A stretch of DNA of 64,000 nucleotides from Phytoactinopolyspora limicola (lineage in GTDB: Bacteria > Actinomycetota > Actinomycetes > Jiangellales > Jiangellaceae): NCBI RefSeq assembly GCF_011320225.1, contig NZ_JAAOEN010000005.1, forward strand, positions 37,515-101,514, read 5' to 3'. The translations under genes and the position numbers were made by a program. Of the stretch, positions 11,201-30,152 are shown one piece after another. Each line of letters begins with the position of its first letter. Positions within the stretch are counted from its first letter, which is position 1. The notes beneath the pieces are model-generated. The model was not told the DNA's origin. It saw only the letters and a list, made by a program, of their open reading frames with translations, and made no database searches.

Positions 11201-11228
11201 TTCGGGTGGTGCGCCAGACTAGGTGGCG

Positions 11229-14501: not shown

Positions 14502-16895
14502 TTACTGTGCTGCTCGGCAAGAGGCCAACACCCCGGGCACGCCGACCCCAGGATCACGCAGCGGCAGCCGGGTCGACGCCGCGCGGCACCGCGGCACGTC
14601 GACCTCATAGATGCCACGGCCGAAGGTCGCCACACTCAACTGGCGGGTCGGCTCGTGGTATCGCATGTACATCGTCGCCGCCACCGGCAGGTCGTCACCG
14701 AGCGCAGCCCACTCGCCGCCGTTCCACGCCGAGAGGTAGACCCCGACATCGGTGCCGACGATCAATAGCCCGTCGGAGGTCGGCACAACCGAGTTCACCG
14801 GTGCGTCGGGCAGGCCATGGCCGAGGTCGGTCCAGGTTGCGCCGCCATCCTGAGTGACCATCAAGTGTGGTCGGTCGCTGCCGGCCCGGAAGCCGGAGAA
14901 CGTCGCGTAGGCAACGTTCTCGTCGTCCGGGTGGACGGCGATCCGCGTCACCCACGTGCCGGGTAGCTGGTCGGAGTCGACCTCCGTCCAGTTCTCACCC
15001 ACGTCGTTGGTCCACCACACTTTCCCGTCGTCGGTGCCGACGTACAGGGTGTCGCTGTCGGTTGGGGCGACGGCGACCGCGGTGATGGTGCCCCACGGGT
15101 AACCGGCTGGGTCGTTGGGCCCACCGTCGGTCAGGTCGGGGCTGATGGCGGTCCACGTGCGGCCATTGTCGGTGGACCGGTTGACGATGTTCCCCGCGTA
15201 GTACATGACGTCGGGGTCACTCGGGTCGAACACCAACGGCGTGAACCAGTTTCGACGCTGCGACGTCGTCTGCCCCGGCCCGATGGGTTGGCGCGGGGTT
15301 CCGCCCGCGGTCTCCGACCGGTAGCAACTGCCGTACTGGCTGCATCCGAAGACGATGTCCGGGTTCTCCGGGTGGATGATCACCTGCAAGCCGTCGCCAC
15401 AACCGATGGAGTTCCATGGACCACCCGCGCCGTTGTAGCCACGCAAACAGCCGTTGTCCTGTGTGCCACCGACCTTCAGTACTGGGTCGGTCTCGGCCGC
15501 GTCCACAGAGTAGAACTGGGTGTAGGGCTCATAGGTGGCCTTGGTCCACGACTGCGTGACGCCGTTGGTGTCCGAGCGGTACATGCCACCGTCGTTGCCC
15601 AGGTAGACCCGGTTCGGAACGTCCGGATCCCACGCCATCTTGTGCTGGTCGACATGGATGCCGGCGGAGGTGGTGAACGTCATCGCACCGTCCGTCGAAC
15701 GCCGGAGCTGTACTCCAGCGAGGAACAGATGGTCTTCGTCGGCCGGATCCACCCAGATCTTGCCGAACCACCAGCTGAACGTGGACTGCGAAGCGCCCGC
15801 CGCGGTCAGCGGGGTCTGTGTCCAGGTGTCCCCGCCGTCGTCGGAGCGGTAGAACGCACGGAACGGTCCGAGTGCGGTGCCGACATAGGCGTACAGCCGA
15901 TCCGGGTTGCTCGGGGCGAGTGTGAGTCCCCAGCGGCCCTGGTCGTCGTCGGTCGGCAGCCCGTTGGTCATGCGCTCCCAGGTTTCGCCGCCGTCGTCGG
16001 AGCGCCACAGGCTGGAACCGGGACCGCCGTACGTGCGCTGGTGCGGCTCCCGCAGGTGATCCCACATGGCGGCGTAGACGCGACTCGGGTTGTCCGGGTC
16101 GATGACCACCTCGGTGGCACCCGTCGTGTCGTTGAGCGGTTCGAGTACCTGCCGCCAGGTGTCGCCACCGTCCTCCGTCAGGTAGACGCCGCGCTCGCCA
16201 CCGGGGGTGAAGAGGTTGCCGGCAGCCGCGGCGAACACGCGATCCTCGTCGCTTGGATCGATGGCGAAACGGGCGATCGCGTGGCTGTCCTGCAGGCCGA
16301 CGTTCTCCCACGTCTCACCACGATCGTGCGAGCGGTACACGCCGTCGCCGCCGAAGGTGATGGAACCACCGCCGGGCTGTGGTTCACCGGTGCCGGCGAA
16401 CAGGACACCGTCGCTGGTGATGGCGACCGCACCCATCCCCTGCACCCAGTCGTCGGGCCACACCGATTCGTAGGTCATGCCGGCGTCGCTGGACTTCCAG
16501 ATCCCGCCGGAGGCGGCGGCGATGAACAGTTGGTCGTCGACCTCGGGGTCGATGGCGATGTCGACGATCCGGCCACCGATGTTCGACGGACCGAAGAAGT
16601 CCCATTCCAACTGAGCCAGGTGCCGGTAGACGTTGCGGGTGCGCAGGGCGATACCCCGGGCCTCGGCACGAGCCGACGCGTACGTCGCCGCCGATAGGTC
16701 GGTGTCGCCGTCACTGAGCCGCTGGCTGGTCATCCATTCGTCGGGCAACTCCATGGGCCCGGTAGGTGTGGACGTGGCCAGTGACTCCTGACCACGACCC
16801 GGGACAAGTGAGATGACCAAAGCCGCTGTCGCGGCCAGTGCGAGCACCGCCATCGCTGTGACACGCCAGCGGTGCCGGGCGAACGTCGCTTTCAT
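14502..16895 (-). CDS. Exported BNR/Asp-box beta-propeller protein
   Basis: A 797-aa protein with an N-terminal signal peptide or anchor (residues about 13-32) after a basic MKATFARHRWR start. Many Asp-box motifs of the form S-x-D-x-G-x-T-W are visible, including SSDAGMTYES, SHDRGETW, TEDGGDTW, SDDGGETW, SDDGGDTW and STDNGRTW. These indicate a sialidase-fold or VPS10-like propeller, probably two propellers given its length. Related proteins include xyloglucanases and photosystem assembly factors, and no catalytic residues can be assigned here. GGAGGG precedes the ATG. It is presumably extracellular and may bind glycans or protein surfaces. Confidence 0.82.
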   Translation of the reverse strand: MKATFARHRWRVTAMAVLALAATAALVISLVPGRGQESLATSTPTGPMELPDEWMTSQRLSDGDTDLSAATYASARAEARGIALRTRNVYRHLAQLEWDFFGPSNIGGRIVDIAIDPEVDDQLFIAAASGGIWKSSDAGMTYESVWPDDWVQGMGAVAITSDGVLFAGTGEPQPGGGSITFGGDGVYRSHDRGETWENVGLQDSHAIARFAIDPSDEDRVFAAAAGNLFTPGGERGVYLTEDGGDTWRQVLEPLNDTTGATEVVIDPDNPSRVYAAMWDHLREPHQRTYGGPGSSLWRSDDGGETWERMTNGLPTDDDQGRWGLTLAPSNPDRLYAYVGTALGPFRAFYRSDDGGDTWTQTPLTAAGASQSTFSWWFGKIWVDPADEDHLFLAGVQLRRSTDGAMTFTTSAGIHVDQHKMAWDPDVPNRVYLGNDGGMYRSDTNGVTQSWTKATYEPYTQFYSVDAAETDPVLKVGGTQDNGCLRGYNGAGGPWNSIGCGDGLQVIIHPENPDIVFGCSQYGSCYRSETAGGTPRQPIGPGQTTSQRRNWFTPLVFDPSDPDVMYYAGNIVNRSTDNGRTWTAISPDLTDGGPNDPAGYPWGTITAVAVAPTDSDTLYVGTDDGKVWWTNDVGENWTEVDSDQLPGTWVTRIAVHPDDENVAYATFSGFRAGSDRPHLMVTQDGGATWTDLGHGLPDAPVNSVVPTSDGLLIVGTDVGVYLSAWNGGEWAALGDDLPVAATMYMRYHEPTRQLSVATFGRGIYEVDVPRCRAASTRLPLRDPGVGVPGVLASCRAAQ

Positions 16896-17084: not shown

Positions 17085-17615
17085 TCAACCGTGGTCGCTG
17101 CGGAATTCCGGCAGACCGGCGTCTTCGGAATCGGGACCGATGACCGCGGTGATCGACGTGCCGTCGTCGCACAGAGCCGCGGCGAGCACGTACATCCGCA
17201 GCCCGTCCGCCCGGACCAGGACTTCGGCCTCGAAGATCTCGTCTTCGACGCGGAGCAGTTCCACGTCGTCGCGGTTCTCGTAGTCGGCCCGCACGTCGAG
17301 AGGGGTCATGCGGATGGTGCCGTCGACCGTCGTCAGCGGCCCTTGTTCCAAGACCGACGTGATCCGGGCACCGTCGGGTAGGACGAGGCCGGGCACGTCC
17401 GGGTCGATCTCGGGGTCGTCCTCCAGTGGAACGCGGTCGCAGTCTGGCAGGTTGGCCAGCATGGCCTCGGCGGGATCCTGGGCGGCGCCGTCGCCGTCGT
17501 CACTGCCGCAGCCGGCCAGTAGTGTCACCGCGAGGAGCACGGAGATCACCCCGCCGGCGGCACGAACGCACGTCGCGGGGCCGCGGGCGGCGTCGACGAG
17601 GGGCCGGTTCACCAT
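17085..17615 (-). CDS. Small putative lipoprotein
   Basis: The ATG at 17615 gives 176 aa; a GTG at 17633 would start inside a palindrome. After a hydrophobic segment (VISVLLAVTLLAGC) comes a lipobox with Cys about residue 36, then an Asp/Gly-rich linker and a compact domain of about 130 residues that I do not recognise. It is probably membrane-anchored outside the cell. It stands alone between the BNR gene and the transporter operon, all on the minus strand, with 189 nt of unannotated sequence (16896-17084) on its downstream side. Confidence 0.72.
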   Translation of the reverse strand: MVNRPLVDAARGPATCVRAAGGVISVLLAVTLLAGCGSDDGDGAAQDPAEAMLANLPDCDRVPLEDDPEIDPDVPGLVLPDGARITSVLEQGPLTTVDGTIRMTPLDVRADYENRDDVELLRVEDEIFEAEVLVRADGLRMYVLAAALCDDGTSITAVIGPDSEDAGLPEFRSDHG

Positions 17616-17632
17616 CGCGTCAGCATCGCACA

Positions 17633-17690
17633 CCCATGATCATGAACACTTTGCCGGGCTATAGCCCGGCAAAGTGTTCATGATCATGGG
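17633..17690. repeat. CATGATCAT palindrome, subfamily A, copy 3
   Basis: A perfect 58-bp palindrome (17633-17661 and 17662-17690). The centre is GGGCTA/TAGCCC instead of GTGCTA/TAGCAC, so both arms changed together relative to copy 2. It lies between the end of the ABC operon (stop at 17706) and the start of the lipoprotein gene, both on the minus strand, and probably terminates the operon. Confidence 0.93.
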
Positions 17691-17705: not shown

Positions 17706-18620
17706 TCAGCGGAGGATGCGCCAGCGCCGGACCACCAGTAGTAACGCCGTGATGATGGCGGTGGTGATCAGCATCAGAACGATAGTGATCAGTGCGCCGT
17801 AGGCGAAGCCGGAGAACTCGAATGCCTGGTCGAAGATGTACACCGGGAGATACAACGTCGCGTTGGCCGGCCGGCCGTCGGTGAGCACGTACGCGGGGAC
17901 GAAGTTCACCTGCAACGTCAGAATCGTGTCGCGCACCGCCAGGAGCACGAGGATGGGTGCCAGCAGCGGCAGGGTGATCCGGCGCAGCTGGCCGAACGGC
18001 CCGCACCCTTCCAAAGCGGCCGCCTCGTAGAGCCGGTTGTCCAGCAGCCGGCGGGCGGCGAGGACAACGATGAACCCCTCGCCGATCGGGAACAGCAGCA
18101 TCAAGACCACGCCCACCCGGGCGGTGGTCGGTTCGGCCAGCCAGTTGAAGGCCGGCAGCCCGAACAGGCCCAGCAGCTGGTTCAGTGGCCCGTACAGCGG
18201 GTTGAGTACCCACAGGAACAGGACAGCCAGGGCGACGTCCGGGATGACGGTGGGCAGGTACACCGCGGTGCGGAACCAGCGACCGCCGGGGCGGGGCGCG
18301 GCCAGCAACAGACCGAGACCAACGGCCGCCAACAGCCGTAGCGGCACCGACAACGCGACATGGAACAGCGACGCCTCCAGGCTGTCCACGAAGAACGTGT
18401 CGGACGTCAGCCGCTGGACGTTGTCGAAGCCGACGAACTGAGGGTCCCTCGTCAGCCCGGTGTGGTCGGTGAACGCGTAGCCGACGTTGAGCAGCGCGGG
18501 CAGAGCGATGAGCACCACCACGGCGGCCGCGTACGGCGCGAGGAACACCCACCCGGTCATGGTGCGTGGCGCGCTGCCCGGTCGCCGCGACGTCGGCGGC
18601 GGACCCGCTGACGTGGTCAT
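17706..18620 (-). CDS. CUT1-type ABC transporter permease (first)
   Basis: The 304-aa inner-membrane permease of a carbohydrate-type (CUT1) importer has about six transmembrane segments and the EAA loop DNRLYEAAALEGCGPFGQLRRITLP, which contacts the ATPase. The ATG at 18620 overlaps the stop codon of the ATPase gene by four bases (ATGA), so translation is coupled. It is the last gene of the hydroxyproline operon. With the permease at 20967 it would form the channel. CUT1 systems normally import sugars or polyols, so the natural substrate is uncertain. Confidence 0.9.
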   Translation of the reverse strand: MTTSAGPPPTSRRPGSAPRTMTGWVFLAPYAAAVVVLIALPALLNVGYAFTDHTGLTRDPQFVGFDNVQRLTSDTFFVDSLEASLFHVALSVPLRLLAAVGLGLLLAAPRPGGRWFRTAVYLPTVIPDVALAVLFLWVLNPLYGPLNQLLGLFGLPAFNWLAEPTTARVGVVLMLLFPIGEGFIVVLAARRLLDNRLYEAAALEGCGPFGQLRRITLPLLAPILVLLAVRDTILTLQVNFVPAYVLTDGRPANATLYLPVYIFDQAFEFSGFAYGALITIVLMLITTAIITALLLVVRRWRILR

Positions 18621-19660
18621 CGGCGCAGCCCCGTCCGCGCGTCGAACCGGTGGATACGGTCGGGGCTGGCTCGCAGCCGGATCGGGTCGCCGGGCCGCAC
18701 GTCGGGCCGGGGGCCGGTCCGGACGGCCAGCGCCGTCCCGTCCCCGCACCGGGTCAACAGCACGGCCTCGCTGCCGAGGGCCTCCACCGCCTCCACGGTG
18801 GCCTCGATCGGCCCGTCGTCGTCGATCGTGAGGTCTTCTGGTCGGACCCCGGCGACGCTGTCCTCGGGATGGCCCAGCACTCCGCCGCCGGGCGTCAGGT
18901 TCATGGCCGGACTGCCGAGGAAGCGGGCGACGAACGTGTCGGCGGGTGCGTCGTAGACCTCCTGAGGTGGGCCGACCTGGCGGACCCGGCCACCTTCCAC
19001 GATCACGACCCGGTCGCCCATCGTCATCGCCTCCGCCTGATCGTGCGTGACGTGCAACGTGGTTGTCCCGAGTTGGCGGTGGATGGCCAGCAGATCGGAC
19101 CGTGTGGTGATCCGCAACTGGGTATCCAGGCTGGCCAGCGGCTCGTCGAGGAGGTAAACGCTGGGATCGCGGACTAGGGCGCGGGCCAGCGCCACCCGCT
19201 GCCGTTGCCCGCCGGACATCTCGTCGGGATGACGGTCCAGCAGCTCAGCGATGTCTAAGCGGCGGGCGGCCGCCTCCGCTCGTCGGTCCGCCTCGGCGCG
19301 GGCTACCCGGCGTACCCGCAGCCCGAACCGGAGGTTGTCCCGGACGGTGAGGTGTGGGTAGAGCGCGTAGTCCTGGAAGACCATCGCTACCGAGCGCCGG
19401 TGCGGGGGCACGTCGACGACATCCTGGCCATCGACGACGACCTGCCCAGCGTCGGGCCGCTCCAGGCCGGCGATCAGCCGCAGGATCGTCGATTTTCCAG
19501 AGCCCGACGGGCCGACGATCGTCACCAGCTCCCCGGCGCCTACTTCCAGGTCGACCCCGCACAACGCGGCGACCGTGCCATAGGACTTCGCCAGCCCAGC
19601 GAGCCGGATACTCGCACCTTCGCGCCGTCCATCCGGCGGAGCCTCGGTTGGTGTGTTCAC
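18617..19660 (-). CDS. CUT1-type ABC transporter ATPase (UgpC/MsmK-like)
   Basis: The 347-aa ATPase shows Walker A GPSGSGKST (50-58), Q-loop FQDYALYPHL, signature MSGGQRQR (148-155), Walker B VYLLDEP (168-174) and the switch His in HVTHDQAEAM. The C-terminal 100 residues form the MalK-type OB/regulatory domain. The GTG start at 19660 overlaps the previous stop as GTGA. It powers import through the two flanking permeases. In many actinobacteria CUT1 importers share one ATPase encoded elsewhere, so an operon-encoded ATPase points to a dedicated, complete transporter. Confidence 0.92.
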   Translation of the reverse strand: MNTPTEAPPDGRREGASIRLAGLAKSYGTVAALCGVDLEVGAGELVTIVGPSGSGKSTILRLIAGLERPDAGQVVVDGQDVVDVPPHRRSVAMVFQDYALYPHLTVRDNLRFGLRVRRVARAEADRRAEAAARRLDIAELLDRHPDEMSGGQRQRVALARALVRDPSVYLLDEPLASLDTQLRITTRSDLLAIHRQLGTTTLHVTHDQAEAMTMGDRVVIVEGGRVRQVGPPQEVYDAPADTFVARFLGSPAMNLTPGGGVLGHPEDSVAGVRPEDLTIDDDGPIEATVEAVEALGSEAVLLTRCGDGTALAVRTGPRPDVRPGDPIRLRASPDRIHRFDARTGLRR

Positions 19661-20970
19661 GGACGGCCACCCCCACCATCGAGGGTGAACAACGGACGTA
19701 GGTCCTCTTCCAGCCGCCGGAGTCCTTCCTCCCGTTCGACCCGGCCGTAGAAGACCTCCTCCAGCAGGGCGTTCGCCTCGCGCTCCACCCGCGACCACGT
19801 CCCGGTCCGCGGCGTCGTGCGCAGGTGCGGTTCGGCGTCGAGAAAGACGTGCGACGATGCCGGCGGCTCGGTTGGTTCGAGGAAGAGGTCCGAGGTGGCG
19901 ACGTCGAGCCGCGAAGGGACGGTCCGGCCCGAGTCGGCGAGGATCTCCTGGCCGGTGACATCCGTGGCGAACTCGATGAACCGCCAGGCGCTGGTGTGGT
20001 CGGGAAGGTCGGCGCTCATGCAGTAGGCGTCGCTGTGCAGGATGCTCGCCGGCTCGCCGCCCGGTGCGACCGGCAGCGGTGCGACGTCCCACTCGAACCC
20101 GTCGATGCCGCGGAGCACTGGGACCGCCACCCGGCTGTCGAGGTACATGCCGAGGGTGCCGCGGAGGAACCGGGCCTGGCTGGTTTCGCTCTGTTCCTCG
20201 ATGTCCGGCGGGACCACACCGTGCACCAACTGGAGGTCCAGGAACCAGTCGACGGCAGCCCGGGTGGCTGGGTCGCCGGTCAGGGTCAGGGTGCTCGGGT
20301 GGTCCGGGTCGTCGACGACGTCGCCGCCGTTGGACCAGATGAACGGAGCCAGCCGGATGATCATCACCTCAGTGCCGAGGCCGTAGCTGCCATCACCGGT
20401 GAGTGCCTGGGCAGCGGCCCGAAACTCGTCCCAGTCCCAGCCGTCGCGTGGCAACGGGATGCCGGCGGCCTCGAACATGTCCTTGTTGTAGTAGACCACC
20501 AGCGACGAGAGGTTCTGAGGTAGGCACGTCAACTCGTTGCCGTCGAACCGGAACGCATCCAGGGCGGCCGGGCTGAAATCGGCCTCGTCGAGAACGTCAC
20601 TGGTATCGAGGTAGGACTGGGCCGGCTCGATCGCGGCTTCCGCGGCGAACTGGCCATATCGGCGGAAGTTCAGCAGGAACACGTCGGGCGGGTTGCCACC
20701 GGCGAACGACGTCGTCAGCCGGGCCATCAGCTCGTCCTGGGTGGCTACCGGGGAGAGGTCGACGCTGACATCGGGGTTGGCCGCCTCGAACGCCTCGACC
20801 AGATCGCGGTAGCCCGCGACCTCCTCGGCGTCACCGAACAGTACGACGGTGATCCGTGCGGCCGGTCCGGTTCCGGGGCCGTCGCCGTCACCGTCGCCCG
20901 TTCCGCCCGAGCAGGCCGCCAGAGCCGTGGCAGCGAGCAGCGCGGTCACCCAACGCGTGAAGCGGGTCAA
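19657..20970 (-). CDS. Extracellular solute-binding lipoprotein, family 1
   Basis: The 437-aa protein starts with a lipoprotein signal ending LAAC (Cys20), then a Gly/Asp linker and a family-1 solute-binding fold (ITVVLFGDAEE, NPDVSV, PPDVFLLNFRRYGQFA, VVYYNKDMFEAAGI). It is tethered to the outer face of the membrane and delivers substrate to the permeases at 20967 and 17706. The ATG overlaps the upstream permease stop as ATGA. Family-1 proteins mostly bind sugars. Being embedded in a hydroxyproline operon, it may bind hydroxyproline, a hydroxyproline-containing compound or a glycosylated form. Confidence 0.9.
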   Translation of the reverse strand: MTRFTRWVTALLAATALAACSGGTGDGDGDGPGTGPAARITVVLFGDAEEVAGYRDLVEAFEAANPDVSVDLSPVATQDELMARLTTSFAGGNPPDVFLLNFRRYGQFAAEAAIEPAQSYLDTSDVLDEADFSPAALDAFRFDGNELTCLPQNLSSLVVYYNKDMFEAAGIPLPRDGWDWDEFRAAAQALTGDGSYGLGTEVMIIRLAPFIWSNGGDVVDDPDHPSTLTLTGDPATRAAVDWFLDLQLVHGVVPPDIEEQSETSQARFLRGTLGMYLDSRVAVPVLRGIDGFEWDVAPLPVAPGGEPASILHSDAYCMSADLPDHTSAWRFIEFATDVTGQEILADSGRTVPSRLDVATSDLFLEPTEPPASSHVFLDAEPHLRTTPRTGTWSRVEREANALLEEVFYGRVEREEGLRRLEEDLRPLFTLDGGGGRP

Positions 20971-21869
20971 CGTCGTCTCCTCAAGGCACTCAAGGGGTCG
21001 TCACTCAGCAGGATGCGCTGCGCCAGTAGGAACACCACCACGCAGGGGAGGGTGGCGATCACGCAGCCGGCCATCAGCAACGGCCAGTCGGTCGGGTTCA
21101 GCAACCGCAAGAACTGCAACCCCAGCGGGAACGTGTACAAGTCGCCGCGTTGCAGGTAGAGCAGCGGGTCGATGAAATTGGCCCAGTGGAAGGTGAAGGC
21201 GAGCACGGCCACCGCCAGGGTCGCCGGCCGGACCTGGGGGAGCGCCAGCCGCCGCCAGATGGTCAGCCAGTGTGCGCCCTCCAGGCGGGCGGCCTGCAAC
21301 TGGCTGTCCGGGATGCCGCCGAAGCTCCAGGCATAGAGCAGTACGAGGAACGGGCTGACCGCGAGTAGCGCCGGGGCCAGCAACGGGATGTACGTATCGA
21401 CGACGCCGGCCAGCCGGAAGACCTCGAAGCGGGTTGCCCACACCGCGGTGACCGGCACCAGCAGGACGACGAGTAGTCCCAGCACCGCGCGGCGGCGGTG
21501 GGGCGGTGTCATGATCCGCAGGCCGAAGCCGGTCAGCGCGGCGACCACCACCGTCAGCGGCACCGCCAGCGCGACCACGAGGGCGGAGTTCCCGAGATAG
21601 GTGAACAGCGGGATCAGTTCGGGGAGCCGCGTGTAGGCGTCGAGTGTCGGATCCGGCGGCAGGACCTCGAGGGTCCGCGGCGGCGGCGACCCGGCGGGGC
21701 GCAGCGATCCGACCACCATGAACCACAGCGGTGCCGCGAAGACCGCTGCGAGGATGGTTGGCACGACGAACCTGCCGGCGACCCGGCCGACGGCGCGGAC
21801 GCCGGCCCGAGTTCGGGCCCGGTCGCGCTCACGCCGTCCTGGCTTGGACGGGGTGCCCAGAACCGTCAA
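20967..21869 (-). CDS. CUT1-type ABC transporter permease (second)
   Basis: The 300-aa permease has about six transmembrane segments and an EAA-type loop with LQAARLEGAHWLTIWRRLALP, typical of MalG-like CUT1 subunits. It uses a TTG start at 21869 that overlaps the epimerase stop codon as TTGA, and its own stop overlaps the next gene as ATGA. An ATG alternative is not available nearby, and the run of four-base overlaps supports the TTG choice. It partners the permease at 17706. Confidence 0.87.
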   Translation of the reverse strand: MTVLGTPSKPGRRERDRARTRAGVRAVGRVAGRFVVPTILAAVFAAPLWFMVVGSLRPAGSPPPRTLEVLPPDPTLDAYTRLPELIPLFTYLGNSALVVALAVPLTVVVAALTGFGLRIMTPPHRRRAVLGLLVVLLVPVTAVWATRFEVFRLAGVVDTYIPLLAPALLAVSPFLVLLYAWSFGGIPDSQLQAARLEGAHWLTIWRRLALPQVRPATLAVAVLAFTFHWANFIDPLLYLQRGDLYTFPLGLQFLRLLNPTDWPLLMAGCVIATLPCVVVFLLAQRILLSDDPLSALRRRR

Positions 21870-22852
21870 AGGACGAAACCTTCGGGAAACGGATCGGTGG
21901 GATCGACGACGTACTGGGCCCTACCGGTGATCCAGGCTCGCCCGGTGATGGTGGGCACCACGGCGATGTGACCACCGACGGTGTCCTCGCCTACCAGCCG
22001 CCCGACGAACCGGGTGCCGACGAACGACTCGTTGACGAACTCGGCGTCGATCGGCAACTCGCCGCGAGCGTGCAGCTGAGCCATCCGGGCGGAGGTGCCG
22101 GTGCCACATGGCGAGCGGTCGAACCAGCCCGGATGGATGGCCATGGCATGTCGAGAGTGCCGGGCGTTCGCCCCGGGGGCCAGGAACTGGACGTGGTGGC
22201 AGCCGGCGATGTCCGGCCGTTCCGGATGGACGGGGCGGCGCTGCTCGTTGATCGCCGCCATGATGGCCAGCCCGGTGTCCAGGATCCGCTGCTTCTGCGC
22301 CCGGTCGAAGGGGAGCCCTACCTGGTCCAGCGGCAGGATCGCATAGAAGTTGCCGCCGTACGCGATGTCGTAGGTGAGTTCACCGTGGCCGGGTAGGTGC
22401 ACGGTGGCGTCGAGTTCGTGGCTGTACGAGGCGACGTTGCGAATGGTCACCGATTCCGCGGAGCCGTCGCGGACGGTCACCTCGGCGACGACGAGACCGG
22501 CCGGTGTGTCGAGGCGGATCGTGGTGACCGGCTCCGTGACCTCCACCCGCCCGGTTTCGACGAGGACGGTGGCCACCCCGATGGTGCCGTGGCCACACAT
22601 GGGCAGGCAGCCGGACACCTCGATGAACAGCACACCCGCGTCGGCGTCGGGCCGAGTGGGGGGTTGCAGGATGGCGCCGCTCATGGCTGGGTGGCCGCGG
22701 GGCTCGTTCATCAGTAGCCGGCGTATGCCGTCGGAGTTCTCGATGAACCACTGGCGCCGCTGCGCCATCGTGGCCCCGGGCAGGGTGCCTACGCCCCCGG
22801 TGATCACCCGCGTGGGCATACCTTCGGTGTGCGAGTCGACAGCGTCGTACAT
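21866..22852 (-). CDS. 4-hydroxyproline 2-epimerase (proline racemase family)
   Basis: A 328-aa proline-racemase-family enzyme with both catalytic cysteines: Cys86 in MCGHGTIG and Cys249 in DRSPCGTGTSA. Having two Cys argues for a racemase or epimerase and against trans-3-hydroxyproline dehydratase, where the first Cys is replaced by Ser or Thr. It would convert trans-4-hydroxy-L-proline to cis-4-hydroxy-D-proline in the cytoplasm, the substrate of the dehydrogenase encoded upstream. The ATG begins 50 nt from the deaminase stop, with a palindrome between them. True proline racemase activity is the main alternative; the operon context strongly favours hydroxyproline. Confidence 0.9.
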   Translation of the reverse strand: MYDAVDSHTEGMPTRVITGGVGTLPGATMAQRRQWFIENSDGIRRLLMNEPRGHPAMSGAILQPPTRPDADAGVLFIEVSGCLPMCGHGTIGVATVLVETGRVEVTEPVTTIRLDTPAGLVVAEVTVRDGSAESVTIRNVASYSHELDATVHLPGHGELTYDIAYGGNFYAILPLDQVGLPFDRAQKQRILDTGLAIMAAINEQRRPVHPERPDIAGCHHVQFLAPGANARHSRHAMAIHPGWFDRSPCGTGTSARMAQLHARGELPIDAEFVNESFVGTRFVGRLVGEDTVGGHIAVVPTITGRAWITGRAQYVVDPTDPFPEGFVL

Positions 22853-22868
22853 GGACCCCTCCCTCCGG

Positions 22869-22918
22869 TGATCATGAACACTTATCCGGGTTATGACCCG
22901 GTCAAGTGTTCATGATCA
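22869..22918. repeat. CATGATCAT palindrome, subfamily A, diverged copy 4
   Basis: Arms TGATCATGAACACTT-ATCCGGGT and ACCCGGTC-AAGTGTTCATGATCA surround TATG; two positions of the stem no longer pair. It is inside the hydroxyproline operon. The deaminase gene reads into it on the minus strand and ends there (Ser-Met-Ile-Met-Asn-Thr-stop), and the epimerase gene starts 17 nt beyond. If it terminates transcription, it would lower expression of the epimerase and transporter relative to the genes upstream. Confidence 0.88.
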
Positions 22919-23792
22919 TGGACATGGTGTGGCGGATCTCCTCCTCCTGATCGGCCAGGAGTGGTTGCCGGGGTGGCCGGCACGGCCCGCCGTAGCGGCC
23001 GGCGACGTCCATCGACAACTTGATCGCCTGGACGAACTCCGTGCGATAGTCCCACCGCAACAGGGGATGCAGGTCACGGTACAACGGCAACGCGGTGTCG
23101 AGATCGTGGGCGAGCGCGGCCTCATACAGGTCCACACACAGCCGTGGCAGCGAGTTGGGGAAACCCGCGATCCAGCCCTTGGCACCGGCCAACGCCAGTT
23201 CGAGCACGGAGTCGTCGGTACCGATGATCAGGTCCAGTTCGGGTGCGAGCTCGGCGATCCGGTAACCCCGCCGGGGATCGCCGGTGAACTCCTTGACACC
23301 GACGATCAGCCCTTCACCGTGCAGCGCGGCCAACAGCTCCGGCTGGAGGTCGATCTTCGTGTCGATCGGGTTGTTGTAGGCCACCACCGGCAGGCCGGCC
23401 GCGGCGACCTCGCGGTAGTGCTGTACGACGGCACGGTCGTCGCCCCGATAGGTGTTGGGCGGCAGGCTCAGCACCGCCTGGGCGCCCGCCTCGGCGGCGG
23501 CTTCGGCCCAGCGGCGGGCCTCGAACGCGCCGTAGGCTCCCACACCCGGCACCACCGCGAACCCGTCCGGAGCGACGTCGACCGCGGTGCGGACCACGGC
23601 CGCCCGCTCGTCGGCGGTGAGCACTTGGTACTCGCCCAGTGAACCGTTGGGGCAGACCCCGTGACAGCCGGCGGCTGCCAGCCAACGTACGTGATCGGCG
23701 AATCGGTCGAGGTCCACTGAGAGGTCGGCACGGAACGGCAACGCCGTCGCGACGAGGACGCCGTGCCAGGGCTGGCGCGGAGTGACGGTCAT
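22902..23792 (-). CDS. DapA-family deaminase/aldolase for hydroxyproline catabolism
   Basis: A 296-aa dihydrodipicolinate-synthase-family protein with NGSLGEY (49-55), Tyr139 in VVAYNNP and the Schiff-base Lys167 in GVKEFTGD. In hydroxyproline operons this family acts as 1-pyrroline-4-hydroxy-2-carboxylate deaminase, yielding alpha-ketoglutarate semialdehyde. The ATG at 23792 overlaps the stop of the FAD subunit as ATGA. The final six residues come from a palindromic repeat, which also provides the stop codon, so the native C-terminus may have been altered. No alpha-ketoglutarate semialdehyde dehydrogenase is present in the window. Confidence 0.87.
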   Translation of the reverse strand: MTVTPRQPWHGVLVATALPFRADLSVDLDRFADHVRWLAAAGCHGVCPNGSLGEYQVLTADERAAVVRTAVDVAPDGFAVVPGVGAYGAFEARRWAEAAAEAGAQAVLSLPPNTYRGDDRAVVQHYREVAAAGLPVVAYNNPIDTKIDLQPELLAALHGEGLIVGVKEFTGDPRRGYRIAELAPELDLIIGTDDSVLELALAGAKGWIAGFPNSLPRLCVDLYEAALAHDLDTALPLYRDLHPLLRWDYRTEFVQAIKLSMDVAGRYGGPCRPPRQPLLADQEEEIRHTMSMIMNT

Positions 23793-25258
23793 AGAGGTCG
23801 ATCCTTCCTGTTGTGCGACGGGACCGGAGCCGGTCCGGGCTGGAGCGGCGGCTTCTCGACGCGGCCGAGTAGCCCGAGGGGAATCGGGGTGGCGACCGGG
23901 CGTTCGGCGAAGGCATGCGGTGTTGCGGCGGTGCCTGCCTCGGCGCCGGCCAGAGCCGCAACTCCGGTGCCGCACATGCGCCCTTGGCACCATCCCATCC
24001 CGGCCCGGGTAAGCAGCTTGACGGAGCGGGCATCGGTGGCCCCGAGTTCGTGCACGGCATTGGTGACAGTGGCGACGGTGACCTCTTCACACCGGCAGAC
24101 GAGGGTGTCTGGGCGCAGCCAGCTCAGCCAACCGGGACGCACCGGATACACCTCGTGGATGGCCTGCGCGAAACGGCGAAGCTGCGCCCGTCGACCGAGC
24201 AACCGGGCGAGCCGGTCGCGGTCGGGCACTGCTCTCGCCCCCGCGGCCGCTAGGCCGGCCAGCTCACCTTCGACGACGGCCAGTGCCGCCCCGCCGACCC
24301 CACACACCTCACCGGCGGCGTAGACCCCGGTGACGTCGGTAGCCTGGTGATCGTCCACCCGCACCACCAGCGAGCCGTCGGCGCCCAGGCGAGTGGTACA
24401 ACCCAGCGCGAGCGGTAGTTCCAGGCGCGGCGTGAAGCCCCAGCCCACCGCCACGGCATCACATTCCACTACTCGTGACGATCCGGGCACGACGGTCCAT
24501 TCGGGAGTGAGCCGCACCACCGTCACCGCTTCGACGTGGTCGTCACCGTGGGCGGCGACCACTGCGTGCCGGACCCGCGGCCGCACCCGATGGCGGCTCA
24601 GCGTGGCGACGTGGCCGGCGCCGCGGAGGAACGTACCAACCGAGCTGGTGACAGCCGGCAGGTGCCGGCTCCACGATCGTGGGTGGTTCGCCTCGAACAC
24701 CCCGACCACCCGCGCACCGTGTGCGGCGAGGTCGGCGGCGACGGGAAGGAGGAACGGCCCGGTGCCACCAACAGCTACCCGTGGGCCGATGGTGACCCGG
24801 TGCCCCTTCCACAATGATTGGGCGCCGCCGGCGCTGTACACCCCGGGCAGGTCCCAGCCGGGGAACGGTAGCGAGCGGTCGTGTGCCCCGGTGGCCAGGA
24901 CCAGGCGCCGGGCGTGGACGGTGACTTCGGCGCCTTCATGCACGGTGTGCGCGGCGAATCCGTCATCGTCACGCTCGACGGCCCACACGTCGTGCCCGGA
25001 CAGGTACCTGGTGCGGGCCCGGACCGTCTCCGCCAGCATTCGATAGACGCGCGTGGTGGGGTGTTGGCCGATACCCGGAGGCGACGAGCCGGGTGGATGC
25101 CTCCAGTACTGTCCGCCGGGCGTCGGACCAGCGTCGACGACGGTCACCCGTGCCCCCGCGTGCACGGCGGCCGTCGCGGCGGCCAGCCCGGCCGGGCCGG
25201 CGCCGAGCACGAGGACATCGACCCGGGCGTCGGCAGACGAGTCACGAGAGATTGCCAT
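23789..25258 (-). CDS. D-hydroxyproline dehydrogenase alpha subunit (HcnB/LhpF-like)
   Basis: The 489-aa FAD/NAD(P)-type subunit starts with a dinucleotide fold (VDVLVLGAGPAGLAAATAA) and ends with a BFD-like [2Fe-2S] domain: CRCEEVT and GMGWCQGRMCGTG. Such subunits, with a DAO-type beta and a small ferredoxin-like gamma, form the heteromeric D-hydroxyproline dehydrogenases known from pseudomonads. The ATG at 25258 overlaps the gamma gene by 17 bases. It passes electrons from D-hydroxyproline oxidation to the respiratory chain. Opine or glycine dehydrogenase (HcnABC) is the paralogous alternative, but the epimerase and deaminase genes favour hydroxyproline. Confidence 0.9.
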   Translation of the reverse strand: MAISRDSSADARVDVLVLGAGPAGLAAATAAVHAGARVTVVDAGPTPGGQYWRHPPGSSPPGIGQHPTTRVYRMLAETVRARTRYLSGHDVWAVERDDDGFAAHTVHEGAEVTVHARRLVLATGAHDRSLPFPGWDLPGVYSAGGAQSLWKGHRVTIGPRVAVGGTGPFLLPVAADLAAHGARVVGVFEANHPRSWSRHLPAVTSSVGTFLRGAGHVATLSRHRVRPRVRHAVVAAHGDDHVEAVTVVRLTPEWTVVPGSSRVVECDAVAVGWGFTPRLELPLALGCTTRLGADGSLVVRVDDHQATDVTGVYAAGEVCGVGGAALAVVEGELAGLAAAGARAVPDRDRLARLLGRRAQLRRFAQAIHEVYPVRPGWLSWLRPDTLVCRCEEVTVATVTNAVHELGATDARSVKLLTRAGMGWCQGRMCGTGVAALAGAEAGTAATPHAFAERPVATPIPLGLLGRVEKPPLQPGPAPVPSHNRKDRPL

Positions 25259-25520
25259 GGCCACTTCCCTCCTGCCTGCGCACGTCTGTCTCGGCCCGGG
25301 CGGGGACGAGACAGGCTCGCTGGTTCGGCTGGCCGTCGACGATCACCAAGCAGTCGAAGCACACTCCGATGCCGCAGAACATCCCCCGCGGCCGGCCGCC
25401 GACGCGAGTGGTACGCCATGAACGGATGCCGGCGGCGAGTAATGCCGCACCGACACTCTGACCGGGCCGGAACGGGATGGCCTGACCGTCGAAGTCGAAC
25501 GTCGGCGGTGGCGGGCTCAT
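25242..25520 (-). CDS. D-hydroxyproline dehydrogenase gamma subunit, [2Fe-2S] (HcnA-like)
   Basis: A 92-aa plant-type ferredoxin-like protein: residues near 17-35 read IPFRPGQSVGAALLAAGI, then the cluster ligands Cys49, Cys54, Cys57 and Cys70 (MFCGIGVCFDC and RAC). The length is usual for the small gamma subunit. The ATG at 25520 overlaps the beta gene stop as ATGA; longer in-frame readings would overlap the beta gene without family similarity. It mediates electron transfer within the complex with the two flanking FAD subunits. Confidence 0.92.
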   Translation of the reverse strand: MSPPPPTFDFDGQAIPFRPGQSVGAALLAAGIRSWRTTRVGGRPRGMFCGIGVCFDCLVIVDGQPNQRACLVPARAETDVRRQEGSGHGNLS

Positions 25521-26674
25521 CCGAACCGCTCCGGTCGGAACGGAACGAGATCCACCTCGGTAGACCGGCCGGCCAGGCTCGCCGCGATCACGTGCCCGGT
25601 GGCCGCGGCCAGGCACACCCCCGCACCCTCGTGCCCGCAGGCGTGCCACAGGCCAGGAGCGCGCGGGTCGGGGCCGATCACCGGCAGGTGGTCCGGGCAG
25701 TAGGGCCGGAAGCCGCGGTAGGCGCGGATGACGTTGACCCGGGCCAGCACCGGGAACAGCCGGACCGCGGCGGCAGCCAGAGTGCGCAGGATCTCCGCGG
25801 GCATGGAGCGGTCGAAACCGACTCGCTCCCGACTGGAGCCGATCAAGATGGGGCCGGCGTCGGTGCCTTCCACCACCGGCGACGTGTGAAGGCCGGCGTC
25901 GGCACTGGCGACGTCGGAGACGTATTCAGCCGCGTAGACCTTGTGCCGGACGAGCACCGGTACGGGTTCGGTCACCAGGACGAAACCACGGCGGGGAAGC
26001 ACGGGGAGGTGGACGCCGGCCAACTCGGCCACCTGCCCACCCCACGTGCCGGCGGCGTTGACGACCGCCGCCGCAGGAATGGAGCCGCTGGTGGTGTCTA
26101 CTCCGACCACCCGCTCACCGTCCCGCAACAAGCCGGTGACCTGCACACCAGTACGTAGCTCGGCGCCGCCGTGCCCCCTGGCGTCGGCGAGCATCCGGGC
26201 CGCCGCCAACATGGGCTGCACCTGTGCGTCCTGGGGGTAGTACATACCGCCGGCGAGGTCGCCCGCGAGGTGCGGCTCGTAGCCGGGCAGGTCGTCGGGG
26301 GCCACCGGGGTCGCCGTCACGCCGGCCGCCTGCTGGCCGAGGCCGGTGTCGAGGAGGTTCTGGTGGGCGCTCTCCGAGGCCGCCACCACCAGACCGCCTT
26401 TGTCGTGGTGCTCGAACCCACCCAACTCAGCGGCCAGGTCGGACCACAGCCGGGCCGACAGCAGGGCCAGCTCGAGTTCCGGGCCGGCGGGTTTGTCGGA
26501 GACCAGGATGTTGCCCTCACCGGCGCCGGTGGTGCCGGACGCCACCGGACCGCGATCGACGACGGTGACCCGTAGTCCCGCCCGTGCGGCGTGCCAGGCG
26601 CAGGCCGCACCAACCACACCTGCCCCGATGACCACGACATCAGGAGCGGCAGGCACAGGCGCAATATGGCACAT
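25517..26674 (-). CDS. D-hydroxyproline dehydrogenase beta subunit (DAO-type FAD oxidoreductase)
   Basis: This is the first gene of the operon. The 385-aa DAO-family protein has the FAD-binding fold VVVIGAGVVGAACAWHA (GAGVVG 17-22) and a C-terminal GHEGAGVCLAAATGHVIAASLAG segment. It should carry the active site that oxidises cis-4-hydroxy-D-proline to the pyrroline. The ATG at 26674 begins just before the conserved core; the in-frame ATG at 26749 lies inside the upstream hairpin and is less likely. The promoter must lie in the 467-nt gap shared with the divergent peptide-transporter operon. Confidence 0.9.
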   Translation of the reverse strand: MCHIAPVPAAPDVVVIGAGVVGAACAWHAARAGLRVTVVDRGPVASGTTGAGEGNILVSDKPAGPELELALLSARLWSDLAAELGGFEHHDKGGLVVAASESAHQNLLDTGLGQQAAGVTATPVAPDDLPGYEPHLAGDLAGGMYYPQDAQVQPMLAAARMLADARGHGGAELRTGVQVTGLLRDGERVVGVDTTSGSIPAAAVVNAAGTWGGQVAELAGVHLPVLPRRGFVLVTEPVPVLVRHKVYAAEYVSDVASADAGLHTSPVVEGTDAGPILIGSSRERVGFDRSMPAEILRTLAAAAVRLFPVLARVNVIRAYRGFRPYCPDHLPVIGPDPRAPGLWHACGHEGAGVCLAAATGHVIAASLAGRSTEVDLVPFRPERFG

Positions 26675-26783: not shown

Positions 26784-27141
26784 TTACGGGAGTGGGATCC
26801 TGGGTCGTTCAGTTCGGGTTCGGGTTAGGACTACGCTGCGAGGCAGGTCTCGCCTAAGGAACGGCGGGAACGAGCCGGTGATCGATCGAGTGCGGAACGG
26901 CGGAGGCAGCCCCAATGCGCTGGCATCGGGGTGTGGTGGCACCCGTCGCACGTCCGGTCGGTCGCCGGGTCAGCCCGGCGGACCGTCGGTGAGACCGGCA
27001 GGTGCCCAACGACGGGTCGACGGATCCGGCGCGGGCGCGAACGCACCGGACGGCCTGGCCTGCTCACCGGTAGGTCAGGGAAACACCGCTCTCGGTGGAG
27101 AACCCACCCCGGCTCATACCAAGGACATCGAGGTGAACCCG
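26784..27141 (+). other. Long leader of the peptide-transporter operon
   Basis: No convincing gene was found here, although the reading frame of the binding protein stays open back to 26878. The translated stretch is Gly/Pro/Arg-rich and lacks a signal peptide, so it is treated as a 5-prime leader. Several short hairpins are visible, for example CCCCAATGC with GCATCGGGG around 26912-26940. I considered a riboswitch, but no known consensus could be matched. Confidence 0.45.
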
Positions 27142-28842
27142 ATGCGCGGACGAAGGTTCAGAGCATCCACGATCGCCGATCTCGGCGCGGACCAACCAAG
27201 GAGACGCGTCGCGTTGCCGCTCGCTGTCGGCGCCGCGTTGGCCCTGGTGCTGGCGGCGTGTGGCGGCGACGACAACGGCAATGGCAACGGCGACGACGGT
27301 GGTGACGACAACGGCGCAGCCACCGATGACAACGGCAACGGCAATGGCGACGAGGTCGACACCGCGCTGCCGGTCATCCTCGGCACCACCGACACAGTGA
27401 CCAACGTCGACCCGGCGGGGGCATACGACAAGCCGTCCTGGAACGTCGTCTACAACACCTATCAGCGGCTCCTCGCCGTGCCGCTCGGCGAGACCGACCC
27501 CCAGCCAGACGCCGCCGAAAGCTGCGACTGGGAAGACGACACCACCTTCGTCTGTGTGGTCCGACAAGGCCAGATGTTCGCCGACGACACCGAGTTGACC
27601 GCCGAGAACGTCGTTCACTCGATCGAACGCAACCTCAACATCCAGCACGAGTCCAACGGCTGGGCGCTGCTGTCGGGCATCGAGTCGGTTGAGGCCCGCG
27701 ATGAGTACACGGTGGCCTTCAGCCTGGAGTCGGCGGACGCGGTCTTCCCGTACATTCTGACCACTGGCGCCGCCGCTATCGTCCCGATGAGCTATCCGGC
27801 CGATGAGCTTCAGCCGAACGATCAGGCTTTCGGGTCTGGGCCCTACCAGATCGAGGCGTTCGACACCACGCAGCAGATCCGCCTTGGTGTCAACGAGAAC
27901 TACGCCGGCGACAAACAGGTCAACAACAGTGGCGTCGTGATCCAGTTCTACCAGCAGCCGTCGGCGCTGAAGCAGGCGATCGAGGAAGGCGAAGTGATGA
28001 TCGCCTACCGCAGCCTCGCCGTCACCGACATCGCCGATTTGCAGGAGCGCGGCGCCGATCGGGGCGTGCAGGTGGTCACCGGTGAAGGCACCGAGATCAA
28101 CTACATGGTGCTGCAGACCGGCCGCGAGCCACTGGAAGACCTGGCAATCCGGCAGGCCATCGCCCAGGTCATCGACCGCGAGACGATCGCCGAGTCGGTG
28201 TACCGCGGCACGGTCTCGCCGCTGTACGGCCCGGTGCCCGAGGGTGTGGCCGGCCACGTGCCCAGCTACCTCGACCGGTACGGCGAGCCGGATGTGGATG
28301 AAGCGACGCGTCTGCTCGACGACGCCGGCATCGACACCCCGGTATCGTTCGACCTCTGGTGGATGCCGGACCGCTACGGTGAAGAGATCGGCGACATGTA
28401 CGGCGAGATCCAGCGGCAGCTCGAAGACACGGGTTTGTTCGACGTCAACCTGGAGCAGTTGTCCTGGGCGCAGTACTCGACGACGTTCAGCGACGGAAGT
28501 ATGGACGCCTTCGACCTCGGTTGGTTCCCCGACCACCCGGACCCGTCGAACTACATCACCGGCTTCTACCATTCCGACGAGGACACCAACTTCCTCAACA
28601 ACGGCTTCGCCAACGACGAGATGGATGACCTGATCAACACCATCCTCACCGACACCGACCAGGACGCCCGGGTCGCCGCGGTGGAACGGGCTTCGGAGAT
28701 CGTCGCCGAGGAGGTTCCGGTGATCCAGCTGTGGCAGCGTGACCAGATCGCGGCCATCCGGGACGGTGTCACCGGTGTCGAGGAAACTCTCGACCCGTCG
28801 TTCATCTTCTACTACAACGTCGTGTCAGGAGTGGCCGACTAA
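27142..28842 (+). CDS. Peptide ABC transporter substrate-binding lipoprotein (family 5)
   Basis: The ATG at 27142 is preceded by a GAGGTG (27130-27135) and gives a 566-aa lipoprotein with lipobox LAAC (Cys40). A striking low-complexity Gly/Asp/Asn linker (about 41-75) leads into a family-5 (DppA/OppA) fold with VFACVVRQGQMFADDTELTAENV-like core and a C-terminal VPVIQLWQRDQIAAIRDGV. These proteins capture di- or oligopeptides for the permeases downstream. Placement opposite the hydroxyproline operon suggests uptake of proline- or hydroxyproline-containing peptides, which is inference. Confidence 0.9.
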   Translation: MRGRRFRASTIADLGADQPRRRVALPLAVGAALALVLAACGGDDNGNGNGDDGGDDNGAATDDNGNGNGDEVDTALPVILGTTDTVTNVDPAGAYDKPSWNVVYNTYQRLLAVPLGETDPQPDAAESCDWEDDTTFVCVVRQGQMFADDTELTAENVVHSIERNLNIQHESNGWALLSGIESVEARDEYTVAFSLESADAVFPYILTTGAAAIVPMSYPADELQPNDQAFGSGPYQIEAFDTTQQIRLGVNENYAGDKQVNNSGVVIQFYQQPSALKQAIEEGEVMIAYRSLAVTDIADLQERGADRGVQVVTGEGTEINYMVLQTGREPLEDLAIRQAIAQVIDRETIAESVYRGTVSPLYGPVPEGVAGHVPSYLDRYGEPDVDEATRLLDDAGIDTPVSFDLWWMPDRYGEEIGDMYGEIQRQLEDTGLFDVNLEQLSWAQYSTTFSDGSMDAFDLGWFPDHPDPSNYITGFYHSDEDTNFLNNGFANDEMDDLINTILTDTDQDARVAAVERASEIVAEEVPVIQLWQRDQIAAIRDGVTGVEETLDPSFIFYYNVVSGVAD

Positions 28843-28853
28843 GAGACCGCGCA

Positions 28854-28918
28854 GAATGGGCATCGTCGGGTTCGCGGGCCCGGGCATCCTGCCCCGCTCA
28901 CTACCCGACGCCCCATTC
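28854..28918. terminator. Imperfect hairpin after the peptide-binding gene
   Basis: GAATGGGCATCGTCGGG (28854-28870) pairs with CCCGACGCCCCATTC (28904-28918), with a 2-nt bulge. Lying 12 nt after the stop, it may cause partial termination so that the binding protein is made in excess over the permeases, a common arrangement. Confidence 0.5.
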
Positions 28919-29071
28919 CGCGTGGCCTCCAAGGCCGCGACTGTCTCGGCGAACATGAATCCCTCAGATCGTGCCGGCCGGTGCGTACCTGCCAGCAGAC
29001 GGGCTCGTCGGTCGCCATCCGAGTCCCCGTCCGCTCGGCGGGTGGTGTCGGCCGGCACGATCACGTGCGGG

Positions 29072-29095
29072 GTGCCGCGTAGCCTGACGCGGCAC
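29072..29095 (+). other. 9-bp hairpin before the first permease gene
   Basis: GTGCCGCGT and ACGCGGCAC enclose AGCCTG, 26 nt upstream of the TTG start. It may be an mRNA processing or stability element. The remainder of the 278-nt gap 28843-29120 shows no gene. Confidence 0.45.
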
Positions 29096-29120
29096 CGTTG
29101 ACTGGAAGGCTGGTGTTCGG

Positions 29121-30152
29121 TTGTCGACTCGCACCTCGGGGTCGCTGCGCACGTACTTGTTGACCCGGGTACTGCTCTTCGTCCCGCAGGTTCTGGTGAT
29201 CCTGACGATCGTGTTCATCCTCATGCGGGTGGCGCCCGGTGACCCCATCAGCGTCGCTCTCGGCGGCCAACGGACCCCTGAGCAACTCGCCGAGCTACGC
29301 GCCGCGGCTGGATACGATCGATCGATCTTCGTCCAGTACTGGGAATACATCACCGGGATCTTCACTCTCGACTTCGGTCACACCATCATCGACAACCGTC
29401 CCGTGACGCAGATCTTCACGGTCAACGGCGGCGCGACGCTGACCCTCACGGCGGCGGCGTTCCTGGTGGCGATGGTGGTTGGTGTCCCGCTGGGGTTGCT
29501 CGCCGGCAGGTTCCGGGACACCCCGTTCGACGCTTCCCTGCGGGTGTTCGGCATCCTCACCTACGCCGCCCCCGTGTTCTTCCTCGGGCTGTTGTTCCAA
29601 CTCGCTTTCGCCCGAGGGCTCGGGTGGTTGCCATCAAGCTCCCAAGCCAGCCCGATCGTGCTGGCCACGGTGGAATCACGAACCAACATCTTCCTCGTGG
29701 ACGCCCTGCTCGCCGGAGATACCAGCGCCTTCTGGAACGGGGTTCAACACCTGATCCTTCCGGCGCTCACGCTCGGACTGCTCTTGTCGGGGATCTTCAT
29801 GCGGATCATCCGGATCAACCTGATCCAGACGCTGCGCAGCGACTACGTCGAGGCGGCGCGGTCGCGTGGCATACCCGAACGGAAGGTGGTCATTCAGCAT
29901 GCCTTCCGCAACGCCATGGTGCCGTTCGTGACGATCCTCGGGCTGCAAGTGGCGTTGCTGATGGGAGGGGCGATCCTGACCGAACAGACCTTCAACTGGA
30001 ACGGAATCGGTAGCCAGCTCGTGCGGTATCTGGAAAACCGCGACTACGTAGCCGTGCAGGGTGTCATCACGCTGTTCGCACTGGTCGTGGTCACGGCGTC
30101 GTTGTTGATCGACATCATCAACGCGATCATCGACCCGAGGGTGAGGTACTGA
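29121..30152 (+). CDS. Peptide ABC transporter permease (DppB type)
   Basis: The 343-aa protein has the DppB layout: an N-terminal transmembrane helix (about 12-35) with VLLFVPQVLVILTIVFILMRVAPGDP, an extracellular loop, five more helices and the EAA loop DYVEAARSRGIPERKVVIQHAFRNA. It uses a TTG start at 29121 with GAAGG upstream; its stop overlaps the next ATG by one base (TGATG). It forms the membrane channel with the DppC-type partner. Confidence 0.92.
   Translation: MSTRTSGSLRTYLLTRVLLFVPQVLVILTIVFILMRVAPGDPISVALGGQRTPEQLAELRAAAGYDRSIFVQYWEYITGIFTLDFGHTIIDNRPVTQIFTVNGGATLTLTAAAFLVAMVVGVPLGLLAGRFRDTPFDASLRVFGILTYAAPVFFLGLLFQLAFARGLGWLPSSSQASPIVLATVESRTNIFLVDALLAGDTSAFWNGVQHLILPALTLGLLLSGIFMRIIRINLIQTLRSDYVEAARSRGIPERKVVIQHAFRNAMVPFVTILGLQVALLMGGAILTEQTFNWNGIGSQLVRYLENRDYVAVQGVITLFALVVVTASLLIDIINAIIDPRVRY

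Follow-up and report, generated by a model that had tools for sequence, protein, structure and literature searches.

We examined nine genes at positions 17706-26674 of a 64,000-nucleotide stretch (the window) of contig NZ_JAAOEN010000005.1 from Phytoactinopolyspora limicola. All nine lie on the minus strand in the same direction, and a five-gene hydroxyproline (Hyp) cassette is followed by a CUT1-type importer. An earlier note on this DNA had described a nine-gene run overlapping at all junctions but one, mostly by four bases, with a CUT1 importer joined directly to Hyp enzymes. Both descriptions were confirmed: seven of the eight junctions overlap, six of them by 4 nucleotides (nt), and the joint is seen in the domains and in the 4-nt overlap of the epimerase and permease genes. 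The start codons of the nine genes were our own choice from the sequence, and include TTG for the MalG-type permease and the binding protein and GTG for the MalK/UgpC-type ATPase.

The first gene of the cassette (25517-26674) encodes an FAD-dependent DAO-family protein similar to D-hydroxyproline dehydrogenase beta and to SCO6289 of Streptomyces coelicolor (PF01266, 7.8e-71). It overlaps by 4 nt with the gene of a SCO6290-like 2Fe-2S small subunit (Fer2_4; 25242-25520; PF13510, 1.7e-25), which overlaps by 17 nt with that of a SCO6291-like subunit carrying Pyr_redox_2 and BFD-like domains (23789-25258; PF07992, 3.3e-27; PF04324, 3.7e-9). After another 4-nt overlap follows a DapA-like protein of the dihydrodipicolinate synthase (DHDPS) fold, resembling pyrroline-4-hydroxy-2-carboxylate deaminase and SCO6292 (22902-23792; PF00701, 4.2e-44). 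Behind the single non-overlapping junction, a gap of 49 nt, lies a member of the proline racemase superfamily that resembles 4-hydroxyproline 2-epimerase (21866-22852; PF05544, 9.9e-132). The importer genes are each joined to the preceding gene by 4 nt and encode a MalG/UgpE-like permease (20967-21869; NF040932, 4.8e-15, and NF008210, 2.1e-14, both under cut-off), the binding protein (19657-20970; PF01547, 1.4e-35; PF13416, 8.7e-35), a MalK/UgpC-type ATPase with TOBE_2 (18617-19660; PF00005, 2.3e-39; PF08402, 1e-13) and a MalF/UgpA-like permease (17706-18620; PF00528, 4.6e-10; NF040931, 1e-20, under cut-off). The CUT1 parts are complete, with an SBP_bac_1/8 protein, two MalF/MalG-like permeases and a MalK-like ATPase. 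Pfam and NCBIfam agree with the nine assignments with two caveats, namely the MalG-type permease, whose PF00528 score of 25.0 bits is just below the Pfam cut-off of 26.4, and the scores of the epimerase. The conserved importer module extends beyond 17706 down to 14502, with minus-strand genes for a small probable lipoprotein (17085-17633; no Pfam match) and for a BNR/Sortilin-Vps10 beta-propeller protein (14502-16895; PF15902, 2.2e-34).

By gene order and domains the Hyp cassette is of an already known actinobacterial type, since the order DAO, Fer2, Pyr_redox/BFD, DapA-like and proline racemase is that of S. coelicolor SCO6289-SCO6293 and the domains match too. A 4-hydroxyproline 2-epimerase is marked by a Cys/Cys rather than a Cys/Thr pair, and both catalytic-cysteine motifs, MCGH and SPCGTG, were present in the alignment. 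The protein nevertheless scored under the NCBIfam equivalog cut-offs, with 353.5 versus 376 bits for 4-hydroxyproline epimerase (the best) and 338.9 versus 556 bits for proline racemase, and we therefore call it epimerase-like and assign its substrate from context. Two aldehyde-dehydrogenase queries found no alpha-ketoglutarate semialdehyde (KGSA) dehydrogenase gene in window positions 10001-40000. Control through a Streptomyces-type HypR operator was also considered; the operator TGCAATGTCAC gave 6 window matches with at most 2 mismatches against 12.7 expected, no excess over chance, and none lay ahead of the DAO gene, although the operator may differ in the host genus. In S. coelicolor, according to an excerpt of the published work, an epimerase knockout can no longer grow on L-Hyp, and an M9 collagenase gene is among those repressed by HypR (PMC6608401).

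The binding protein has a lipobox-like leader (LAAC), and its structure was modelled with a predicted confidence score (pLDDT) of 88.7. The top structure matches of the model were CUT1 binders of oligosaccharides (cycloalternan, arabinobiose, maltose and others), over nearly the whole mature length. The cycloalternan binder Lmo0181 (5f7v) matched with Z 46.9 over 383 residues, and the arabinobiose binder AbnE (6rjy), which is also the best sequence match in the Protein Data Bank (PDB; 5.9e-35), with Z 40.8 over 395 residues. For the modelled protein, such matches establish the fold and not the ligand.

The importer module in relatives

Of 167 binding-protein relatives the best 80 were kept, and these split sharply into 18 loci (L006-L023) at 70-77% identity and others at 35% or less. 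The 18 close loci come from Micromonospora and relatives, Plantactinospora, Jiangella and Phytoactinopolyspora, and all of them retain the order permease, binding protein, ATPase, permease, lipoprotein. The propeller gene, 74-83% identical to that of the window, was also found in all 18, mostly directly next and about 4-5 kb further on in a few (L008, L011), and importer, lipoprotein and propeller genes lie together within a 20-kb locus in every case. The five Hyp genes adjoin the importer in only one of them, L007 of Phytoactinopolyspora alkaliphila. A second linked relative (L115) was found in the order Jiangellales, giving together with the window three linked genomes, all of one genus group.

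The binding proteins of the two other linked species are 75-85% identical to that of the window, and both species offer starts with a 4-nt overlap at the epimerase-permease junction and at all three importer junctions; at the former, L115 has an alternative start 2 nt past the stop codon. In this comparison, which leaves aside the DAO/Fer2 junction of L119, the gene overlaps look maintained. In Phytoactinopolyspora halotolerans the importer, propeller, GntR, PucR, S15 and peptide-importer genes are kept at the corresponding site without Hyp genes, and the Hyp cluster is located elsewhere, beside CUT2-type permease and ATPase genes. A concatenated tree grouped P. halotolerans with the linked P. 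alkaliphila (support 0.86), so loss of the Hyp genes from this site would be the simpler reading.

Whether the importer goes with the Hyp pathway was examined with an epimerase threshold of 1e-80 and importer thresholds of 1e-60 in the order and of 1e-100 with 70% identity in Micromonospora. The 18 genomes behind the close loci contained a close epimerase (66-83%) in 14 cases, 13 of these away from the importer, and none in the other 4. Among the 22 genomes of the order, 8 carry the importer and 7 of these an epimerase, which was also found in 12 of the 14 others (p = 1.0). In the genus Micromonospora (121 genomes) 9 of the 20 importer-bearing genomes had an epimerase and 11 had no match at E<=1e-80; this sample overlaps that of the 18 genomes, and the surroundings were read in 17 of the 20, the other three being without an epimerase match. 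The comparison was also made from the other side, with 91 Hyp clusters taken from 85 of 101 epimerase-bearing genomes and from 6 Micromonosporaceae loci; some of them end at contig ends, and the window's own entry spans 30 kb and the others at most 20 kb. Orthologs of the CUT1 binding protein were near 3 of the 91, weak and different CUT1 binding proteins near 7, and Opp-type components near the epimerase in 20 (9 of them in Jiangella; a few weak). CUT2-type (ribose-like) importer genes, a second sugar-type class in the vicinity of Hyp enzymes, were seen beside some Hyp clusters (L125, 16445-19207; L127, 14530-17597).

The earlier idea of a Hyp-linked importer thus survives in part. The joint is real, it is kept in three genomes of one genus and the local GntR falls in a Hyp-linked clade, but this does not establish a substrate of Hyp type. 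The step from gene joint to substrate (Hyp or a Hyp glycoside) proved weak, with the importer present in 18 of 18 relatives and Hyp enzymes beside it in one; as the importer mostly occurs without adjoining Hyp genes, the joint alone is no proof that the pump carries Hyp. The pocket loops of the binding protein, picked from the AbnE alignment and general features of the fold rather than from coordinates, were invariant in 63 of 82 columns, compared with 208 of 388 over the mature protein. This alignment held the window and 14 of the 18 close loci (15 sequences, 2 from linked and 13 from unlinked genomes); a further one held the window and 17 of the 18, with L011 left out, and L026 was excluded from the binding-protein alignments for a stop within its range. 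Because the loops are mostly invariant in linked and unlinked sequences, the ligand probably does not differ between genomes with Hyp catabolism and those without.

As judged from gene neighbourhoods, the constant partner of the importer is the propeller. A paralogous importer (45-48% identity) occurs in 25 of the 121 Micromonospora genomes, and a propeller protein stood alongside in all seven loci examined (L253-L259), with 23-26% identity over 329-944 residues; another lies beside an importer homolog in the order (L121). A BNR/Vps10 propeller accompanies two paralogous CUT1 importers, with propellers down to about 25% identical. It was not detected at the other distant loci L122-L124, one of which ends at a contig end, and ten neighbouring genes, nine of them from L121-L124 (moeA-like, threonyl-tRNA synthetase-like, EF-G-like and others), gave no pathway clue except the L121 propeller. 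The propeller protein is probably exported. Its NCBIfam match is a glycosylhydrolase family, below cut-off, and its AlphaFold model has a pLDDT of 64. A profile search matched pieces of structures only, the best being 3b7f ('glycosyl hydrolase, BNR repeat', 2.4e-16), with the xyloglucan hydrolase 2cn2 (4.4e-9) also among them, and a single-sequence search against solved structures gave 0 matches; a role as GH74 xyloglucanase found no support past this distant similarity.

Surrounding genes and palindromes

The genes around the module point to protein scavenging. On the plus strand lie an alpha/beta hydrolase (1537-2832), an M64-like peptidase (3112-5823), an M6-like peptidase with a FIMAH domain (6364-8898) and an X-Pro dipeptidyl peptidase-like protein of family S15 (8702-11110; PF02129, 9.1e-50; NF003780, 9.2e-153, below cut-off), whose true start is probably downstream. 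On the other side a Dpp/Opp-type peptide importer with SBP_bac_5, two permeases and two ATPases (26878-33574, plus strand) diverges from the nine-gene run. An enolase-superfamily gene (11223-12218) was considered as a dipeptide epimerase and ruled out, since NCBIfam identifies it as an o-succinylbenzoate synthase of menC type (NF002782, 447.8 bits, above cut-off). Similar genes accompany other Hyp clusters. In Micromonospora, L125, L131 and L132 have genes for M24 aminopeptidase P-like proteins and alpha/beta hydrolases, and L132 also M64-like and S15 genes; M6-like and PucR genes occur in Plantactinospora (L128, L130) and at L235 and L238. For Proteobacteria, an excerpted account reports HypR regulons with collagenases, proline peptidases and a di/tripeptide permease (PMC5343134).

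Two minus-strand regulators, of PucR type (12307-13680; PF13556, 1e-20) and of GntR/FCD type (13748-14635; PF07729, PF00392), are also encoded in the window. In the GntR tree, the linked species and P. halotolerans have sequences that nest among those adjoining Hyp genes, with the L163 sequence as neighbour. In the PucR tree, sequences adjoining the importer in Micromonospora group with those from Hyp loci of Plantactinospora. Both trees were midpoint-rooted without an outgroup, and the groupings are suggestive only.

The only gap of the run, between the DapA-like and epimerase genes, holds a 50-nt palindrome of a TGATCAT...ATGATCA family (22869-22918) that also covers the last DapA-like codons. 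A second 50-nt copy separates the last permease gene from the lipoprotein gene (17637-17686), and further copies of about 50 nt were seen in the window at 1002-1051 and 12216-12265. A strict pattern gave 85 copies in the genome (control 0) and a loose one 214. The loose pattern occurred 1 to 161 times in each of the remaining 21 genomes of the order, and its control had no match in any of the 22; some loose matches in low-copy genomes resemble coding sequence. All three linked species carry a palindrome in this gap, with differing arms and shared TGATCAT...ATGATCA-like ends, and RNAfold energies were -40.7, -71.1 and -80.3 kcal/mol with differing flank lengths. We sampled 20 of the 85 strict sites, all of which were intergenic by our own picks of open reading frames (8 tandem, 6 convergent, 6 divergent genes); the TGA of the element was the stop codon of a neighbouring gene in 8 of the 20, and of both neighbours in one. 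A plain terminator at 22869-22918 is unproven; by the sampled sites, the family is dispersed and not confined to terminator positions. The palindrome may split or attenuate the transcript, and a single operon is therefore unproven.

Readings of the locus

With moderate confidence we read the locus as a scavenging unit for proline/Hyp-rich (glyco)protein in which a known Hyp cassette lies directly upstream of an older importer module for a glycan or glycoconjugate. The M64/M6-type peptidases, putatively exported, and the S15 X-Pro dipeptidyl peptidase would cut such a protein, and Hyp would be set free from peptides taken up by the divergent Dpp/Opp importer. Conversion of Hyp to KGSA would fall to the epimerase, the three-subunit D-Hyp dehydrogenase and the deaminase. 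The CUT1 pump would take up the carbohydrate part, used independently of the Hyp pathway; an oligosaccharide or glycoconjugate, not free Hyp, is its most likely substrate. The analysis shows which genes are present, their order and overlaps, their conservation and their phylogeny, and from these the enzyme activities, the export of peptidases and propeller, the cargo of either importer and joint transcription are inferred.

Several points weigh against this reading. No glycosidase was identified beside the importer, the menC-type gene breaks up the proposed scavenging cluster, and the division of labour between the two importers is something we infer. CUT1-type binders of non-sugar ligands exist, and UgpB with glycerophosphocholine and a dinucleotide binder were among the structure matches. 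The GntR and PucR regulators found with the importer have relatives among the Hyp-linked regulators. In Micromonospora the epimerase is commoner with the importer (9/20) than without it (14/101; Fisher p = 0.003, uncorrected for kinship), and there may be a loose association in this genus. Finally, each of the three linked species has a coupled or almost coupled epimerase-permease junction, so that selection ties both genes in this genus.

The modules could also be unrelated neighbours, the importer carrying an unrelated sugar and the tight packing reflecting a fusion of transcription units in one genus. The 17 of 18 loci without adjoining Hyp genes, the lack of association in the order and the P. 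halotolerans site, bare of Hyp genes in a species that groups with a linked one, all fit this, as does the dispersed palindrome that divides four enzymes from the epimerase and importer. However, the coupled junction survives in three species, at 75-85% identity of the binding proteins to that of the window, and the GntR of the Hyp-linked clade stands beside the module even in P. halotolerans. We consider such chance neighbourhood unlikely, though deserving of serious attention.

Rather less probable is a CUT1 importer of Hyp-O-glycosides or Hyp glycopeptides, such as the arabinosylated Hyp of plant extensins, with the sugars removed inside and Hyp fed to the coupled epimerase. The coupling in three species and the match to AbnE, an arabino-oligosaccharide binder, argue for it, but 27% identity to AbnE cannot fix a ligand, and the importer occurs without the epimerase in 4 of the 18 genomes and in 11 of the 20 from Micromonospora (overlapping samples). 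Further support comes from Jiangella, where a gene for a GH127-type beta-L-arabinofuranosidase was found in 11 of 12 Hyp clusters (L126, L165, L168-L175, L177), with only two weakly matching pieces in L172 and a more distant one (44%) in L165; the twelfth (L167) is on a 6.2-kb contig. Opp components occurred in 9 of the 12, and Hyp-arabinosides from plant glycoproteins are, by analogy, a credible food for Jiangella. In Bifidobacterium longum, an excerpted study reports, the GH127 enzyme HypBA1 acts on arabinobiose from Hyp-rich glycoproteins, which a sugar-type ABC importer takes up (PMC7263609). Against this, the window genome, which is 99.45% complete, gave no match to the GH127 profile PF07944 at E<=1e-10 (GH121 and GH43 were not searched), making the Hyp-arabinoside idea weaker here than in Jiangella. 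The profile was positive in 19 of the 22 genomes of the order, and each of the other two linked species has a single GH127 match, located on another contig.

A narrower form of this idea, which we hold to be improbable, is that the CUT1-plus-propeller module imports a Hyp glycoconjugate (a Hyp-O-arabinoside or a glycosylated Hyp peptide) and is translationally coupled, in this genus, to the epimerase, with which breakdown of the released Hyp begins. If true, the importer would represent, as far as the literature searched shows, a new CUT1 substrate class, and it would bring both the sugar and the amino-acid part of extensin-type glycoproteins into a single pathway. Least probable is uptake of free Hyp or of a small derivative such as a betaine, which the operon-like coupling to the committing epimerase and the varied transporters of known Hyp regulons (ABC HypMNPQ, MFS HypT and TRAP HypABC in an excerpted account, PMC5343134) might favour, but which sits badly with the retention of the module in genomes without the epimerase, with its presence at only three of 91 Hyp clusters and with the structure matches listed, whose titles name no amino-acid ligand (several name none at all).

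The operon-like joint invites a guess at the substrate that the wider genome comparison weakens, which is a caution for reading substrates from neighbouring genes. The surviving leads are the conserved importer with its constant propeller partner and Jiangella Hyp catabolism with a GH127-type gene, and both bear on actinobacterial use of Hyp-rich proteins and their sugars.

Comparison with known systems

No description of a CUT1 importer joined to Hyp enzymes was found in the open-licence PubMed Central (PMC) literature. The closest counterpart of the cassette is the Hyp operon of S. coelicolor with HypR (PMC6608401, excerpt), which agrees with the cassette in its five enzyme genes, their order and their domains, and which has a GntR regulator nearby as in the window and, likewise, no KGSA dehydrogenase gene beside it. 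The HypR regulon table of that work lists no CUT1 importer, unlike the window locus, and the GntR of the window sits downstream of the propeller gene, unlike the arrangement in S. coelicolor. HypMNPQ of Sinorhizobium meliloti and the proteobacterial HypR regulons resemble the locus in having transport genes in a Hyp regulon, with peptidases, collagenases and a peptide permease in some of them; the Hyp transporters named in the excerpt (PMC5343134) include no CUT1 system, the classes being set side by side by description.

For the importer itself, AbnE (6rjy) and Lmo0181 (5f7v) have the fold in common with the window's binding protein at only 27 and 22% identity, a likeness in fold. The beta-arabinobiose system of B. 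longum, as described in the excerpted study (PMC7263609), is likewise a sugar-type ABC importer serving a Hyp-rich glycoprotein source. There, the importer is accompanied by GH43, GH121 and GH127 enzymes and takes up the sugar alone, whereas in the window, from a genome without a GH127 match, the Hyp enzymes are linked to the importer instead.

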